Source: Vibrio rhizosphaerae
GTDB taxonomy: Bacteria > Pseudomonadota > Gammaproteobacteria > Enterobacterales > Vibrionaceae
NCBI RefSeq assembly: GCF_024347095.1
Contig: NZ_AP024903.1
Coordinates: 3,348,001 to 3,412,000 of the forward strand
Direction: 5' to 3'
DNA: 64,000 nucleotides
A program made the position numbers and the translations under genes. The notes below the pieces were generated by a model, which did no database searches, was not told the DNA's origin, and saw only the letters and a program-made list of their open reading frames with translations. Positions 8,236-14,176 of this stretch are shown in pieces; the first letter of the stretch is position 1, and each line of letters starts with the position of its first letter.

Positions 8236-9060
8236 ATGACGCTGATCAGCAAAGATATTCGCATTGTTGCTTCTGATCTCGATGGGACATTACTCGCTCC
8301 GGACCATAAGTTAAGCCCATTTACAAAGAGCACACTGAAAGACCTCCATCAGAAAGGGTATACCTTTATCTTTGCTACCGGACGTCATCATGTTGATGTC
8401 GCCGGCATCCGTGAAATTGCAGGCATTCCTGCGTTCATGATTACCTCGAATGGTGCCCGGATCCACAGCCCGGATAATCAATTGATGTTCAGCCGTAATG
8501 TTCCGAAAGATTGGATCCAAGATTTGGTTGATGTCTGTAAACATGACCCGGATATTTTTATCCACATATATCATGATGATCAATGGCGACTCAGCAATGT
8601 CGACGAAGCAACTCAGCGATATCACAATGAATCCAAGTTCACGTTTCAGATGTTTGATCCGGAAAATCCCCCCTTGGATAACGTGGCAAAAGTATTCTTC
8701 ACCCACAAGCATTCCAGCCACGAAGCTCTGGTACACTACGAGGAGATTCTCAAGCAACGCTTCGCAGGGAATGTGACCATTGCATTTTCCAGCCCCTGCT
8801 GCCTTGAAGTGATGGGACCGGAGATTTCAAAAGGCCACGCATTACAGGTGGTTGCCAACTCCCTCAACCATACACTAGATCATTGTATCGCCTTTGGTGA
8901 CGGGATGAATGATATTGAAATGTTGTCTATGGCTGGTCGCGGCCTCGTGATGAAAACAGCCCATGAAAAAGTCTTGTCAGCCTTACCGAAAATTGAGCGC
9001 ATCGGGAGCCATGCCGACGATGCTGTTGCCCATTATCTTCACCAACACTTGCTGCAGTAA
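8236..9060 (+). CDS. yigL: HAD-family Cof-type phosphatase YigL
   Basis: A 274-residue HAD hydrolase. Motif I is ASDLDGTLL, motif II is FATGRH, and the C-terminal motif IV is FGDGMNDIEML. E. coli YigL dephosphorylates sugar phosphates and pyridoxal phosphate and helps survival under phosphosugar stress. The start at 8236 is preferred to 8209 because GAGG lies 5 nt upstream of it and it matches the usual N-terminus. It follows pldB as in E. coli, and faces the NRPS operon across a hairpin. Confidence 0.92.
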   Translation: MTLISKDIRIVASDLDGTLLAPDHKLSPFTKSTLKDLHQKGYTFIFATGRHHVDVAGIREIAGIPAFMITSNGARIHSPDNQLMFSRNVPKDWIQDLVDVCKHDPDIFIHIYHDDQWRLSNVDEATQRYHNESKFTFQMFDPENPPLDNVAKVFFTHKHSSHEALVHYEEILKQRFAGNVTIAFSSPCCLEVMGPEISKGHALQVVANSLNHTLDHCIAFGDGMNDIEMLSMAGRGLVMKTAHEKVLSALPKIERIGSHADDAVAHYLHQHLLQ

Positions 9061-9175: not shown

Positions 9176-12100
9176 TCAGTTGGCTGATAGCGGTGTCGCC
9201 ATATGGAGCAGAGCACCGGCGTCACCACATCCGGCCCGATGCCCGCTATCAAGGTTCGGAGCATCGATCGGCACGGCCGAGTCAGGGTCTGAGGTATAGT
9301 GTCGTAGCGCAATCATGGGCTGCTCAATAATCTGAATCAGCAGGTGTTCAAACAGCCGAGCCAGACGCTGAGGTGAATATCGTGTTGACCGATACGCAAT
9401 CAGCACTTCCAAAGATTCACCGGGCGTCACAAAAACGGTCAGCGGTAAATGGGTATAACCCCGGTTTTCCATCGCGGTCAGTTTCATGCCGTGATAATCG
9501 AGACTAAACCAATGCTCATCATTCGGATAGTTATCCACTGACAACATGGTATCAAACCAACATGCCTCCCCGGTCAGTTGTCCGATTTCATTCAATCCCA
9601 ACATATCATGTTCACAGAGATGAATCTGTTCCGACTGAACCGCTTTCATCTGTTCAATGAGCGAGCGATTTTTTTGGAGCCGAATCCGGACGGGAATCGT
9701 ATTGGTAAACAGGCCGACATAAGATTCTATCCCCTCAATATTACAAAATCGTCCAGAAACCGGAGAACCGAAAATAACGTCTTCACGTCCACTGAGATCC
9801 CCCAAAATCAGCCCCCATACTCCCTGCATCAACGAATTGATGGTTAAACCGTGATGCTGGCAAAGTGTCGTCAGCTTCTGGGTCATCTGAGGCGACAACT
9901 GAAAAGACACATCACCAACCTGCGCTGAAGGGGATTCATTCTGATAGATCAGGGTCGGCTGTGCGCCAGCCAATACCTGTGACCATACTTGTCTGGCAAC
10001 CGATTTATCCCGTGACGCTAATTGTCGAATCACGCTGGCATAACGCTCCGGGCTTTGCGGGGCTGCTAACGCTGCGGCCGCCACATAAGCCTGCAGCAGA
10101 TCCCGAAGCAAGATCGGTATCGACCACCCATCAATCACCAGATGGTGTTCAGACAAAAATAGCGTATGCTGATTGTCATGATGATGCACCAATACGGCAT
10201 AAAGTAGTGGCTGACGGGTATCCTGCATATCAAAAGGACGCAAAACTTCCCGGGATTCAATGGTCGCCAGCATCGCATCTTGCTCCTCATCAGACCAAGC
10301 ATTCAGAGAGCAAGTTTCCAGCGGCCATAAGCTTGTTCCTTGTTCCGCGGGGTCAAGCGTGATTTGAGGCAATACCTGCACCGCCTGATCTAAAATATGA
10401 ACATCAAAACGAGCCAGTAACTGCGGGTGACGTAATACAACGTTATTCAGCGCTTGCTGCAAACGCTGTACATCCATGTCCCCCACAAACTGCATCTTTG
10501 TCAGTGCGTTATAGTTACTCTGTTGACCACAGGCACGCACATGAGACAGCAGGCCATTCTGTACCGGTAAAGTCGGAATAATGTCATGAATTGCACCATA
10601 TGCTGCCGTGAACTGCGCCCGGAGATCGTCACTGATCACGATATGCGCAGCAGAGCTCTCCTCACGCGTAACACTCGCATGAGGATAACGGTCAATTTTC
10701 AGGGCTATCTTTTCCAGCGTCTTCTCGACAAAGATATCTTTGACTTTCAAGAGGTATCCTTGCTGACGGATTCGGTTGACCAAGGCCATTGCTGAAATGC
10801 TGTCACCACCGAGAGAGAAAAAGTCATCTTCCGCAGAGATTACCGAGCCCCCGAATAGTGACAAAGCTTCCTGACATAACAATCGTTCGCTAGCCGTCTG
10901 CGGGGCTCGACCAAGACATCGAGTCACCGACAGAGGCATGGCAGCCAACGCTTTGCGGTCAATTTTACCGCTCGCATTAATCGGCATCTCAGCGATAATC
11001 TCAATGACCGAAGGCACCATGTAATCAGGCAGAATCTGGGCAAGTGCCGCCAACAAATGCTCACTACGAAGTTGACTGACATGGTCAGGCACCGCGACAC
11101 AAAATCCAATCAATCGGTGTGTCCCCGCAAAAGGCTGCGCCACAACAACTGCCTGAGCAACACCTTGCTGAAGCGATAAGGCGTTTTCCACTTCTCCCAA
11201 CTCGATCCGATAGCCGCGAATTTTTACCTGATCATCACAACGCCCGATAAAAGCAAGTTGCCCCTTTTCAGACCAACACACCAGATCTCCGGTACGATAC
11301 ATCACATCACCGGCAACAAATGGATCGGCGACAAAGCGTTCTGCGGTCATCCCGGGTTGATTTAAATATCCCTGCGCCATCCCCGCACCAGCAAGATAAA
11401 GCTCTCCGACACTCCCTGTCGGTACCGGTGTCAGCGTTTCATCCAAAACATAGGTGCGCGTATTGGCGATAGGGCGACCGATCACTGGAGTATCATCCGC
11501 TTTAAAACTGGCACTCACGGCATCAACCGTATATTCCGTTGGCCCATAAAAGTTTTCAACGATCAGAGCAGGATACTCTTTCACCTTTTGCCACAACTTA
11601 TGAGGAACCGCTTCACTACCGACTAAGACAAGTGTCGGTACATGTGACATGGTCATCAGTCCGGCTTCCAGCATCTGATAAAACAGCGAAGGGGACAAAT
11701 CTAAAGCGTCAATCTGATCTTGCCCGACCAACCGAGCCAGCTCAAACGCATCCCGACGTTGCTCATTCGAATAGAGATACAAGGTATGTCCGTGAATCAT
11801 CCATAAAATTTGCTCCCAGGATGCATCGAAAGAAAAAGAGGTGGTATGAGCCGCCCGGACAATGGGACAATCACGGACTTGTCGCAACTGCGACAGCGCC
11901 CGTTCAAAAATGGTCTGTCTATGAGACAGCGCGAGATTCAGTAACGCACCATGATGATTTAAAACCCCTTTCGGTTGACCGGTCGAACCGGATGTAAAAA
12001 TAATATAAGCAGTATCCTTTCTTTGCGGTGCAGGATAATCCGAGGGGAAATCTTGACGGACAGACAACAAGGTTTCGAATCGCCACAGCACCATAAGCGA

Positions 12101-12652
12101 TGGTTCTGTCAGTGCTTGTTGTAAAGCAGACGACGGATTTGCATCGATCAGTACACCACGGGGACGCGCTTGTTCCAGCATCGCCTCAATTCGTTCCTGC
12201 GGGTAATCCGGATCAATGGGGAGATAAACGGCACCACATTTCATCACCGCCAGCAGCGCAATCACGGCATTCCCGGTTCTCGGTAACGCAACCCCAATCA
12301 CATCACCATGCCGGACACCGCCTTGCAAGAGGCTCGCCGCAACGGTATTGATCTGCTCATTCAATTGCGCGAACGTCCATGATGACTGGCTGTCGGACAA
12401 TGCCAGTCGTGACGGAAATGATTCGACTTGCTGTTTTAGCAGGTCAAGAATGGTTTGGTACTCCGCGGGAAGGACGAGTGCCGTACCGGCAGACCATGGC
12501 TGAATATCGAGTTGAGCCGCCGGTATGCGTGATGTGAAGTTCAATGCGTGCGCGGCCGACTCCGAGTCTTTTACAAAATCAACGTTTTCAGGCGGTCTTA
12601 CTGCCTGTGACCATAATGACATTGATTCATCAATAACATTACTCATAGACAT
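9176..12652 (-). CDS. Single-module nonribosomal peptide synthetase, A-PCP-C order
   Basis: A 1158-residue synthetase. The adenylation domain (about 55-570) has all core motifs: [11 protein letters not shown] at 219-229, NFYGPTE at 367-373, YRTGDL at 452-457 and the catalytic lysine in NASGK (563). The carrier domain has GGDS with the phosphopantetheine serine at 618. A condensation domain follows (about 690-1130) with an intact HHLVIDG at 836-842. There is no thioesterase, reductase or upstream condensation domain, so the product is not released in the usual way. The last domain may join the loaded residue to a free amine or to a carrier on another protein. It is the third gene of an operon with a PPTase and an MbtH-like gene, 12 nt after the latter. 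AGGA precedes the start. The substrate is unknown. Confidence 0.92.
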
Positions 12653-12664
12653 AGCGATAATTCC

Positions 12665-12877
12665 TCATGAATTCAGTCCAGAGAGATGAACATGCTGCCA
12701 GTTTTGTTCGATATAACTGAGACAGGCAGATTTATCTTCCGGACCGAAAATCGCTTGCCAGCCTTGGGGGACCGGATTGGATTCTGGCCACAGGCTATGC
12801 TGACCACGGTCATTGGTCAGCACGAGAAATTGATGATTCACATCATCAAACGGATTGGTATATTTTTTATCATTCAT
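12665..12877 (-). CDS. MbtH-like protein, NRPS adenylation partner
   Basis: A 70-residue MbtH-family protein, exactly the usual length when started at 12877. The family signature is visible: NPFDD, the SLWPESNPVPQGW block and CLSYIEQNW. These proteins bind adenylation domains and are needed for their solubility or activity. Its place directly upstream of the NRPS makes that enzyme the obvious partner. A longer start at 12916 has no ribosome-binding site, while GGGTGG lies about 10 nt before 12877. Confidence 0.93.
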   Translation of the reverse strand: MNDKKYTNPFDDVNHQFLVLTNDRGQHSLWPESNPVPQGWQAIFGPEDKSACLSYIEQNWQHVHLSGLNS

Positions 12878-12928
12878 TATTTTTAAGCCACCCTGCCAAC
12901 TAAGGGAAAGATTCATACTTTGTTTACA

Positions 12929-13615
12929 TCAGGCATCCCGTTCAATCTGTATTAATGTCACGAGAGCCTCTTCGAACAACAGATAGTCGCCATGACAAAC
13001 CTGAATGCCGATCTCTTGCTGAAGTGTTTGGGAAAGTTCAAACGTGAAATGTGAATGTTGCGGGTCAAAAGAAACTAATTGTGCATCATGGAAGTCAAGA
13101 TAACGCTTCACTAAAGGATAAAGCGCCTTAAAAAGACTCTCTTTGGCGGAAAACATTAGAGAGATAAACTGCGCTTTAGACCAGTCGGTCTCCTGAAGCT
13201 TCATCTCCCCGGACGTGACAATCATTTTCCCGACCGACTCGCATAGCGTGTCATCCATGATATTTTCGATATCAATCCCGATCGATAATCGCTCCGCGTT
13301 GGTAGACACGGTACAGATCGCTGTATCATCCGTATGCGAGATGGAGCCGATAAATCCATCAGGCCATACCGGAGAACGATGTTCTCCAATCCCAACCCAA
13401 GGTTCAGATGCACCTCGGTGCAGCAAGGCATATTTTGCGGCTATCCTGCCGGCAACAAATTCTGCTTTTCTTTTACTGACCGCGCCGAGCAGGGAGTCAG
13501 GCAAGGTGATACCTTCTTGCACAGCGCCTGCCGGATACTCATCACGCGCATAGCGATTGATAAAAATAGTCTGTCCACCCAGGCATAACTGCTTCTGCCA
13601 GATCAGAAATGTCAT
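12929..13615 (-). CDS. EntD-type 4'-phosphopantetheinyl transferase
   Basis: A 228-residue Sfp/EntD-type enzyme that moves phosphopantetheine from coenzyme A to the serine of carrier domains. The three family motifs are present: the GEHRSPVWPDGFIGSISHT region, IGIDIE and FSAKESLFKALYP. The metal-binding Asp/Glu and catalytic Lys/Glu residues are intact. It heads the operon with mbtH and the NRPS, so it probably activates Ser618 of that NRPS. The ATG at 13615 is chosen over the GTG at 13618; AGGGA lies upstream. Confidence 0.92.
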   Translation of the reverse strand: MTFLIWQKQLCLGGQTIFINRYARDEYPAGAVQEGITLPDSLLGAVSKRKAEFVAGRIAAKYALLHRGASEPWVGIGEHRSPVWPDGFIGSISHTDDTAICTVSTNAERLSIGIDIENIMDDTLCESVGKMIVTSGEMKLQETDWSKAQFISLMFSAKESLFKALYPLVKRYLDFHDAQLVSFDPQHSHFTFELSQTLQQEIGIQVCHGDYLLFEEALVTLIQIERDA

Positions 13616-13618
13616 CAC

Positions 13619-14176
13619 TCATCGTCCCTAAGCTCGTTCATTATATATGCAAATCAATTGAAAATAGGCCTCATGCAATGGCGTAAGCCGTCCCCATCCG
13701 AGCACTTAACCTGATATGCCGAAACAAACATTCATGATTATTTTTCTGAATTTCTTGCTCATACTTGCTGAATCGTTGCACTGCAACAGCAGCCATTAGC
13801 ATACAACCAATACACGTATAAACTCCAATAAAAATCCGTGGAACTCACAGCGGAGATCGCATTATTTCCTATATATCCGACTCATATAGTGTTAGTTCTC
13901 ACGATAACAGACCGTTCGTTCATCCATCAGTTCCTCAATCCCATTCAGAACACCTCAATGTCATCATAAATTCACTGATACTGACGGTGAGGCACCTTCA
14001 CGATTGACACGGTGCAGCACAAGACAACATGACCTGTCTCAGGTCAGGAGCCGTCTCTTAACAACAGGACCTGATTTAATCAGGCGATAAAATGTGGATA
14101 GAGAGAGTTGATGAATAGTGAGGATCGATGATGTGCACCTGACAGGCGGAAACAACCACCTGTCAGGTGCAAAATT
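13619..14176. other. 558-bp intergenic region upstream of the NRPS operon
   Basis: No gene is supported here. On the minus strand TATAAT lies at 13644-13639, about 25 bp from the PPTase start, and could be the operon's -10 element; no good -35 is seen. A 15-bp palindromic site, CCTGATTTAATCAGG, is at 14070-14084 and might be a regulator site. The rest shows no structure I can name. Confidence 0.5.
14134..14171. terminator. 13-bp hairpin downstream of the EVE gene
   Basis: TGCACCTGACAGG (14134-14146) pairs perfectly with CCTGTCAGGTGCA (14159-14171) around a 12-nt loop. It lies 5 nt beyond the stop codon of the minus-strand EVE gene. No U tract follows, so Rho-independent termination is uncertain. 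Confidence 0.55.

Follow-up and report, generated by a model that had tools for sequence, protein, structure and literature searches.

A three-gene operon of Vibrio rhizosphaerae encodes a shortened nonribosomal peptide synthetase (NRPS) that is maintained by selection and descends, on good evidence, from a siderophore assembly line. The operon lies in a 64,000-nucleotide stretch of NZ_AP024903.1 (assembly GCF_024347095.1, positions 3,348,001 to 3,412,000; hereafter the window) and comprises genes for an EntD-type 4'-phosphopantetheinyl transferase (PPTase), an MbtH-like protein and a 1158 amino acid NRPS with one adenylation (A), one thiolation (T) and one condensation (C) domain. Because domain trees and a fossil C-domain lobe in the homologue of Vibrio mangrovi agree, the origin of the A-T-C protein by deletion from a siderophore synthetase of the 2,3-dihydroxybenzoate (DHB)-amino acid-Ser kind is well supported. 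The fuller explanation that we favor, and hold with moderate confidence, combines this deletion origin with a PPTase shared by other assembly lines, a basic amino acid loaded by the A domain and an acceptor supplied in trans.

The operon encodes a single A-T-C protein and its two accessory proteins

The PPTase, the MbtH-like protein and the NRPS are encoded by three minus-strand open frames with gaps of 12 bases between each. Comparisons below draw on a genus survey of 227 genomes including the source genome, in which G-numbers label genomes and L-numbers label loci; one genome, G141, holds a long relative of the NRPS at the survey threshold. The parts of the operon are listed in window coordinates with the evidence for each (TE, thioesterase; ML, maximum likelihood; dN/dS, ratio of nonsynonymous to synonymous substitution rates).

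13619-13900, minus strand: conserved non-coding leader of the operon (promoter/5' region); alignment of six genomes
12929-13618, minus strand: frame of the EntD-type PPTase, ATG at 13615; Pfam 4PPT_N and ACPS, above cut-offs
12665-12916, minus strand: MbtH-like protein; PF03621, 84.7 bits, above cut-off
9176-12652, minus strand: A-T-C NRPS, 1158 amino acids; Pfam and homologues
12473-12652, minus strand: N-terminal 60 residues of the NRPS, a degenerate stub at the site of the former starter C domain; dN/dS and the V. mangrovi homologue
10964-12436, minus strand: A domain of the NRPS, code DAEDLGFVDK; Pfam, pocket reading and ML tree
10703-10849, minus strand: T (carrier) domain of the NRPS; Pfam, GGDS motif at 10799-10810
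9296-10585, minus strand: Condensation domain of the NRPS, homologue of second-module C domains; Pfam and ML tree, HHLVIDG at 10127-10147
9179-9292, minus strand: C-terminal tail of the NRPS past the C-A linker, where A2-T2-TE would come; dN/dS and alignment to the C2-A2 linker of G141

Within the NRPS, Pfam places AMP-binding at residues 73-430, AMP-binding_C at 487-563, PP-binding at 602-650 and Condensation at 690-1119. The starter C domain for DHB, a Ser-specific A2, T2 and the thioesterase are all missing by Pfam, which likewise shows no reductase and no docking domain. Core motifs are intact in both the NRPS (FTSGSTG, YGPTE, YRTGD, GKIDRK, GGDS, HHLVIDG) and the PPTase (GSISH, GIDIE, SAKESLFKAL). 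Aligned to the G141 protein, the NRPS ends shortly after the C-A linker, and the convergent downstream gene, which ends at 9060, leaves 115 bases on the NRPS side. Frames and domain matches confirm the initial annotation of positions 9176-13615, which had described a PPTase, an MbtH-like protein and one A-PCP-C protein with intact catalytic motifs and without a thioesterase or reductase. Among the neighboring frames there is no entA, entB, entC or entE gene, and neither a further biosynthetic gene nor a dedicated partner NRPS is found beside the operon; the neighbors resemble pldB, yigL and other genes that we take to be housekeeping genes. The remark that no other biosynthetic gene is near thus stands for the operon's own surroundings, while a 2685 amino acid NRPS lies about 52 kb away, outside the window.

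The A, T and C domains are related to catechol siderophore synthetases

We compared the three domains with those of NRPS proteins from the source genome and related Vibrio and with E. coli EntF. Judged by sequence, the three domains correspond as homologues to A1, T1 and C2 in synthetases of the trivanchrobactin/turnerbactin type, which have the order C-A-T-(E)-C-A-T-TE with an optional epimerization (E) domain. Identity of the A domain to A1 of catechol siderophore synthetases (G141, G042, G081 and the source genome) is 52-56%, and it does not exceed 38% for any further A domain in the comparison. For the C domain, identity is 45-50% to C2 of complete siderophore synthetases, 44-47% to two related T-C-A-T-TE proteins and at most 30% elsewhere. 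An ML tree of 38 A domains groups the short-form A domain with A1 of siderophore synthetases (support 100/100), and an ML tree of 33 C domains, from which VibH and AmbB were left out, places the short-form C domain in a clade with second-module C domains (support 100/100). A PDB search with the C domain returned 57 matches at E<=10, including PvdL (173.9 bits), AmbE (72.6 bits) and AmbB (31.7 bits); no chain named VibH, which is a stand-alone C domain, is among them. By descent as read from these comparisons the C domain is not of the VibH or AmbB type and belongs to the siderophore C2 family. Of the VibH- or AmbB-like logic proposed in the initial annotation, an AmbB-like hand-over in trans is possible, and a descent from either type is not borne out by the C-domain tree and the PDB scores. 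A second A-T-C protein of the source genome (L030:8269-11325) has the same domain order and is distant (A 31%, C 21%). When the G081 NRPS was used as a query, the 120 matches listed included one Vibrio name (V. diabolicus, 98%) and otherwise mostly actinomycete lines; no named siderophore product is among these 120.

Among published systems, VabF is the trivanchrobactin/vanchrobactin synthetase and CbsF the chrysobactin synthetase with an E domain; both were compared by published description, not by sequence. What the short form has in common with this type are its three domains, which are homologous to A1, T1 and C2 in the source genome's VabF-like line (C-A-T-E-C-A-T-TE) and in G042 and G081. 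It also has an MbtH gene beside the NRPS gene and a pocket code that is the same as in G042 and G081. It differs in having no starter C domain, no E domain, no A2-T2-TE, no adjoining DHB genes and no Fur-like site above background. TnbF (turnerbactin) and FreF (frederiksenibactin, by description; PMC8480324) have T directly before C and no E domain, as in the short form, and the M1 code of TnbF, DSDDGGLVDK, shares 6 of 10 letters with it (PMC3795760); TnbF is, however, a complete two-module line with a TE, whereas the short form is missing both ends. AmbB of Pseudomonas aeruginosa consists of A, T and C without a TE, and the short form too would need an acceptor in trans, but the two are not close by descent, as the PDB score indicates, and AmbB has a partner in AmbE (PMC8968710) while none was found for the short form. 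The likeness to VibH and to the glidonin C13 domain is one of possible logic only, namely an amine acceptor without a TE.

A complete relative and a fossil lobe point to deletion at both ends

The short-form gene set occurs in 6 of the 227 genomes, the source genome counted. In the five sister genomes the NRPS is 80-84% identical to the 1158 amino acid protein and is adjoined by MbtH and PPTase genes, and the sister operons occupy the same neighborhood (for G195 the PPTase-side flank alone is covered). This shared adjacency and these shared neighbors indicate that the A-T-C operon was most likely inherited within one clade. The closest named homologues of the NRPS are from Vibrio sp. MEBiC08052, V. 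gazogenes, V. ruber and V. mangrovi, and the A-T-C reading frame is open in all six short-form genomes and in V. mangrovi. The copy in G068 (L016:1498-5103) is 1201 amino acids long and carries a low-complexity insert of SLSTS/KREST repeats in the front part of the A domain. Among papers found by searching for V. gazogenes or V. ruber with siderophores or NRPS, none deals with the operon as judged by title or abstract opening.

The G141 NRPS is a C-A-T-C-A-T-TE protein encoded in the same PPTase-MbtH-NRPS order as the operon. With ent and exporter labels that we assume, its cluster reads entC-entE-entB-PPTase-MbtH-NRPS, followed by an exporter. The V. mangrovi homologue, compared as a protein sequence alone, is 1364 amino acids long with about 250 residues preceding its A domain. 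This extra segment matches the rear of the G141 starter C domain, residues 207-476 of that protein (31%, E 6e-35), and the lobe carrying HHxxxDG is gone. In the short-form clade the starter-C remnant has dwindled to a stub of about 60 residues. Alongside the homology, gene order, fossil lobe, motifs and purifying selection observed here, the direction of change would be from complete to shortened. The ancestor would have been a cluster for a catechol siderophore, arranged ...entB-PPTase-MbtH-NRPS(C-A-T-C-A-T-TE), from which the Vibrio ruber/gazogenes/mangrovi line would have lost the starter C domain, A2-T2-TE and the DHB genes, leaving PPTase-MbtH-(A-T-C). The initial annotation had set its proposal of a working unit against a fragment of a larger known line shortened by deletion; the trees and the V. 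mangrovi fossil place the gene as just such a derivative, yet it is maintained. The ways in which new NRPS functions emerge through module loss are mostly deduced from end products. In this one genus the complete line coexists with half-deleted and fully deleted forms, and the shortest is still under selection.

Siderophore clusters at L090, L091 and L092 (in G142, G102 and G098, respectively) have the order entC-entE-entB-PPTase-NRPS with an NRPS of the T-C-A-T-TE form, without the C and A domains of module 1. EntB of G102 and G098 is 219 amino acids long with the aryl carrier missing, and EntB of G142 has the carrier end but not its DS serine motif. The first T domain of the T-C-A-T-TE proteins has presumably turned into the aryl carrier, shifting the line towards an enterobactin-like product.

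The remaining domains are constrained like those of a complete line

Selection was estimated as dN/dS by NG86 between the source genome and the five other short-form genomes. Ratios are 0.10-0.12 for A, 0.05-0.13 for T and 0.10-0.11 for C, while the complete paralogue in the same six genomes gives 0.10-0.12 for A1, 0.07-0.12 for T1 and 0.12-0.15 for C2. As these ranges are similar, constraint on each of the three short-form domains, C among them, resembles that on the complete line, and the domains are maintained, not decaying. Values for the N-terminal stub (0.33-0.66) and the C-terminal tail (0.20-0.59) are higher.

The adenylation domain likely activates a basic amino acid

The pocket letters of the A domain are DAEDLGFVDK, with Asp at 278 and 331; position 239 may read W in a gapped alignment, and the last letter, Lys, comes from the alignment and was not extracted. 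Four further homologues whose pockets were read, those of MEBiC08052, V. gazogenes, V. ruber and V. mangrovi, share this code letter for letter, as do the complete lines G042 and G081; G141 and the source genome's own complete line depart from it by a single letter each. EntF, read by eye in the same alignment, yields DVWHFSLVDK, which is the reported Ser code (PMC3795760). The TnbF code given above belongs to an Orn domain; CbsF (Lys) and VabF (Arg) have the nearest known codes, which agree with it at 60% (PMC3795760). Homology and the code match to complete homologues make a cationic or basic amino acid the likely substrate of the short-form A domain. Since vanchrobactin is made by a Vibrio (PMC5524678), L-Arg would be the most likely first choice. 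The two Asp residues had been taken in the initial annotation as a hint at a polar or basic residue, and the cationic alternative is now backed by code identity with two complete siderophore synthetases.

The operon PPTase probably serves the assembly lines of the whole genome

The operon PPTase shows 37% identity to E. coli EntD, 35% to the PPTase of the G141 siderophore cluster and 39-43% to the PPTases of G142, G102 and G098. It reaches 104.9 of 169 bits against the NCBIfam EntD equivalog, under the cut-off, and by this model appears related to EntD without being EntD itself. The MbtH protein of the operon is 53% identical to that of the G102 siderophore cluster. The source genome contains three ACPS-family matches: an AcpS-like protein, which we take to be AcpS, the operon PPTase and a 306 amino acid protein in what we assume from its appearance to be a prodigiosin pigment cluster, although NCBIfam gave no prodigiosin name for that cluster. 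The operon PPTase is therefore the only EntD-like PPTase found in the source genome. The complete siderophore cluster of this genome has its own MbtH gene and no PPTase gene; five other Vibrio with such a cluster were examined, and in each the sole PPTase match not of AcpS size lies within about 20 kb of it. With one EntD-like PPTase found against 46 carrier-domain matches, this inventory suggests that the operon PPTase probably serves the NRPS/PKS carriers of all assembly lines of the genome, the complete siderophore line included. The three genes are then hardly the self-contained unit that had been proposed, and removal of the operon could silence several products together.

The condensation domain may pass a free aminoacyl group to an acceptor in trans

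For the present reaction, acceptor and product we infer the following course. The PPTase would prime the T domain, and the A domain, together with MbtH, would load T with a cationic amino acid that it has activated, L-Arg being the likeliest. The C domain would then pass on the free aminoacyl group, the DHB cap now being absent, to an acceptor supplied in trans. One candidate acceptor is a free amine, in which case the product would leave as an aminoacyl amide with no TE required; the other is an aminoacyl carrier belonging to a different line. The A-T-C protein would in both cases have what is probably a new role, the coupling of one amino acid to a partner. Within the C domain, 94 of the 115 sites invariant in 11 C2 relatives are kept. 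All seven A-T-C rows depart from these relatives at sites 703-705, 845, 1013, 1029 and 1032, although the replacing residue can vary between rows, and site 845 lies directly behind HHxxxDG. The position of these changes would fit an altered substrate channel and hints at a new donor or acceptor.

A partner synthetase elsewhere in the genome, as envisaged in the initial annotation, did not emerge, with no A-T-TE protein or orphan carrier found. Outside the other clusters, no stand-alone T domain was found in the source genome except one 81 amino acid frame, which we take for a fatty acid acyl carrier protein. Co-occurrence was also tried as a route to a dedicated partner and dropped: judged by frame lengths, four NRPS systems are present in all six short-form genomes (the largest of them split into shorter frames in G131), and none is singled out. 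Because no carrier partner was found, we lean slightly towards an amine acceptor.

Joined to a free diamine or polyamine, in the manner of VibH or glidonin, the amino acid would leave as an arginyl-amine and a TE would not be needed. The lack of a TE, of a downstream carrier and of an orphan partner, together with the lineage-changed C-domain sites, agrees with such a ligase, and a precedent exists in glidonin C13, the C domain of termination module 13 of a long line, which condenses T-bound Ala with putrescine (PMC10587159). As the C domain is carrier-accepting by descent and not VibH-like in sequence, we regard this as plausible while short of probable. The same descent, from a type that accepts a carrier-bound amino acid in complete lines (Ser by analogy to TnbF), would suit a transfer like that of AmbB, a published case of transfer in trans in which Ala is passed to Glu on AmbE (PMC8968710). 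Here the A-T-C protein would donate its amino acid to one already bound to a carrier in another NRPS, such as Ser on the final carrier of the complete siderophore line, which is present in all six short-form genomes (2820-2894 amino acids), and a carrier-bound dipeptide would result. No docking domain is shown by Pfam, however, and the tail is weakly conserved; the product of condensation with Ser would, without DHB, be expected to chelate iron poorly, no Fur-like site exceeds background in the source genome, and co-occurrence, with four candidate systems, picks no partner. A transfer of this kind is possible but somewhat doubtful.

That the PPTase alone matters, with A-T-C and MbtH as passengers heading for loss, is unlikely: the PPTase is indeed the sole EntD-like one found in the source genome and both ends of the NRPS are already gone, but purifying selection on A, T and C equals that on the complete paralogue and the frame is open in six of six genomes and in V. 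mangrovi. Separate acquisition of an A-T-C protein of the AmbB kind, without siderophore kinship, would account for the identical domain order, yet the trees, the identities, the G141 gene order and the V. mangrovi fossil lobe refute it in practice, leaving it highly improbable. Several observations weigh against the explanation that we favor, a deletion-derived operon with a shared PPTase, a basic amino acid and an acceptor in trans. The amount of change in the C domain lies within the range of its relatives, left-out controls keeping 94/121 (T-C-A-T-TE), 94/101 (G141) and 94/97 (the clade's complete lines) of the invariant sites, and is by itself no proof of a new acceptor. A carrier partner is not obvious, as no A-T-TE protein is found among the thioesterase matches of the source genome. 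We found no experimentally assigned match to DAEDLGFVDK, the literature matches on the code letters being unrelated, and Lys or Orn remains compatible as the substrate. G131 and G068 hold one further PPTase-family match each, so that the status of the operon PPTase as the only EntD-like one is not clade-wide. NG86 is rough at these distances (dS 0.6-2.4 across the paralogue domains and up to 1.7 in the short-form T domain), and one long branch close to the A-domain clade, c2850_A1, drew a warning from the tree program.

More tentatively, two-end deletion of a triscatechol siderophore synthetase could have produced a free-standing arginine:amine (or arginyl transfer) ligase, with the C domain re-tuned to an uncapped donor and release by aminolysis; the T-C-A-T-TE form would then be the other shortening, found in three Vibrio genomes and using the old T1 as aryl carrier. 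If this speculative scheme is true, the short forms together would be a natural record of NRPS lines pared to new functions. The change of a carrier-accepting C domain into an amine-releasing or trans-acting one becomes testable in this setting.

Operon leader and other assembly lines of the genome

The leader of about 280 bases is matched in 6 of the 227 genomes, the source included, with no match at E<=0.001 in the other 221. Mean column identity is 94% over 302 columns in six genomes (window positions 13600-13900, the first coding bases included). Rfam matches to the leader are far below gathering scores, folding against shuffled sequences indicates no extra RNA structure (z-scores +0.52 and +1.33), and of 85 predicted pairs one has both partners changed. 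A leader peptide with cysteine codons, noticed by eye in the leader alignment, was dropped as its start codon is lost in G195. In a consensus scan for Fur-like sites, the best site upstream of the operon in the source genome matches 12/19 positions, which is background: 148 of 318 stretches of the window reach at least 12. Four sisters likewise reach 12/19, G195 has a 14/19 site some 430 bases upstream, and in the source genome's complete cluster a site before the esterase gene reaches 16/19. The scan is weak because of the 14/19 in G195 and because the entC/entA gap of G141 reaches just 13/19.

Seven other regions of the chromosome carry Condensation matches. The 2685 amino acid NRPS mentioned above (L040:8721-16778), 1.7 kb past the right end of the window, has the order C-A-T-C-A-T with two thioesterase matches, and an open frame of this length is present in all six short-form genomes. 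The complete trivanchrobactin-like cluster, at and around L035:362-8824, contains the C-A-T-E-C-A-T-TE protein, MbtH, an enterochelin-esterase-like protein and ent-like genes, without a PPTase. At L030:2191-13086 lies a cluster of A-T, C-A-T-C, A-T-C and A-T proteins, of which the 1448 and 1025 amino acid frames are also found in G068. A C-A-T protein followed by a ketosynthase (KS)-T-TE protein is encoded at L036:10455-16797, and a 1083-1092 amino acid C-domain frame is present in all six short-form genomes.

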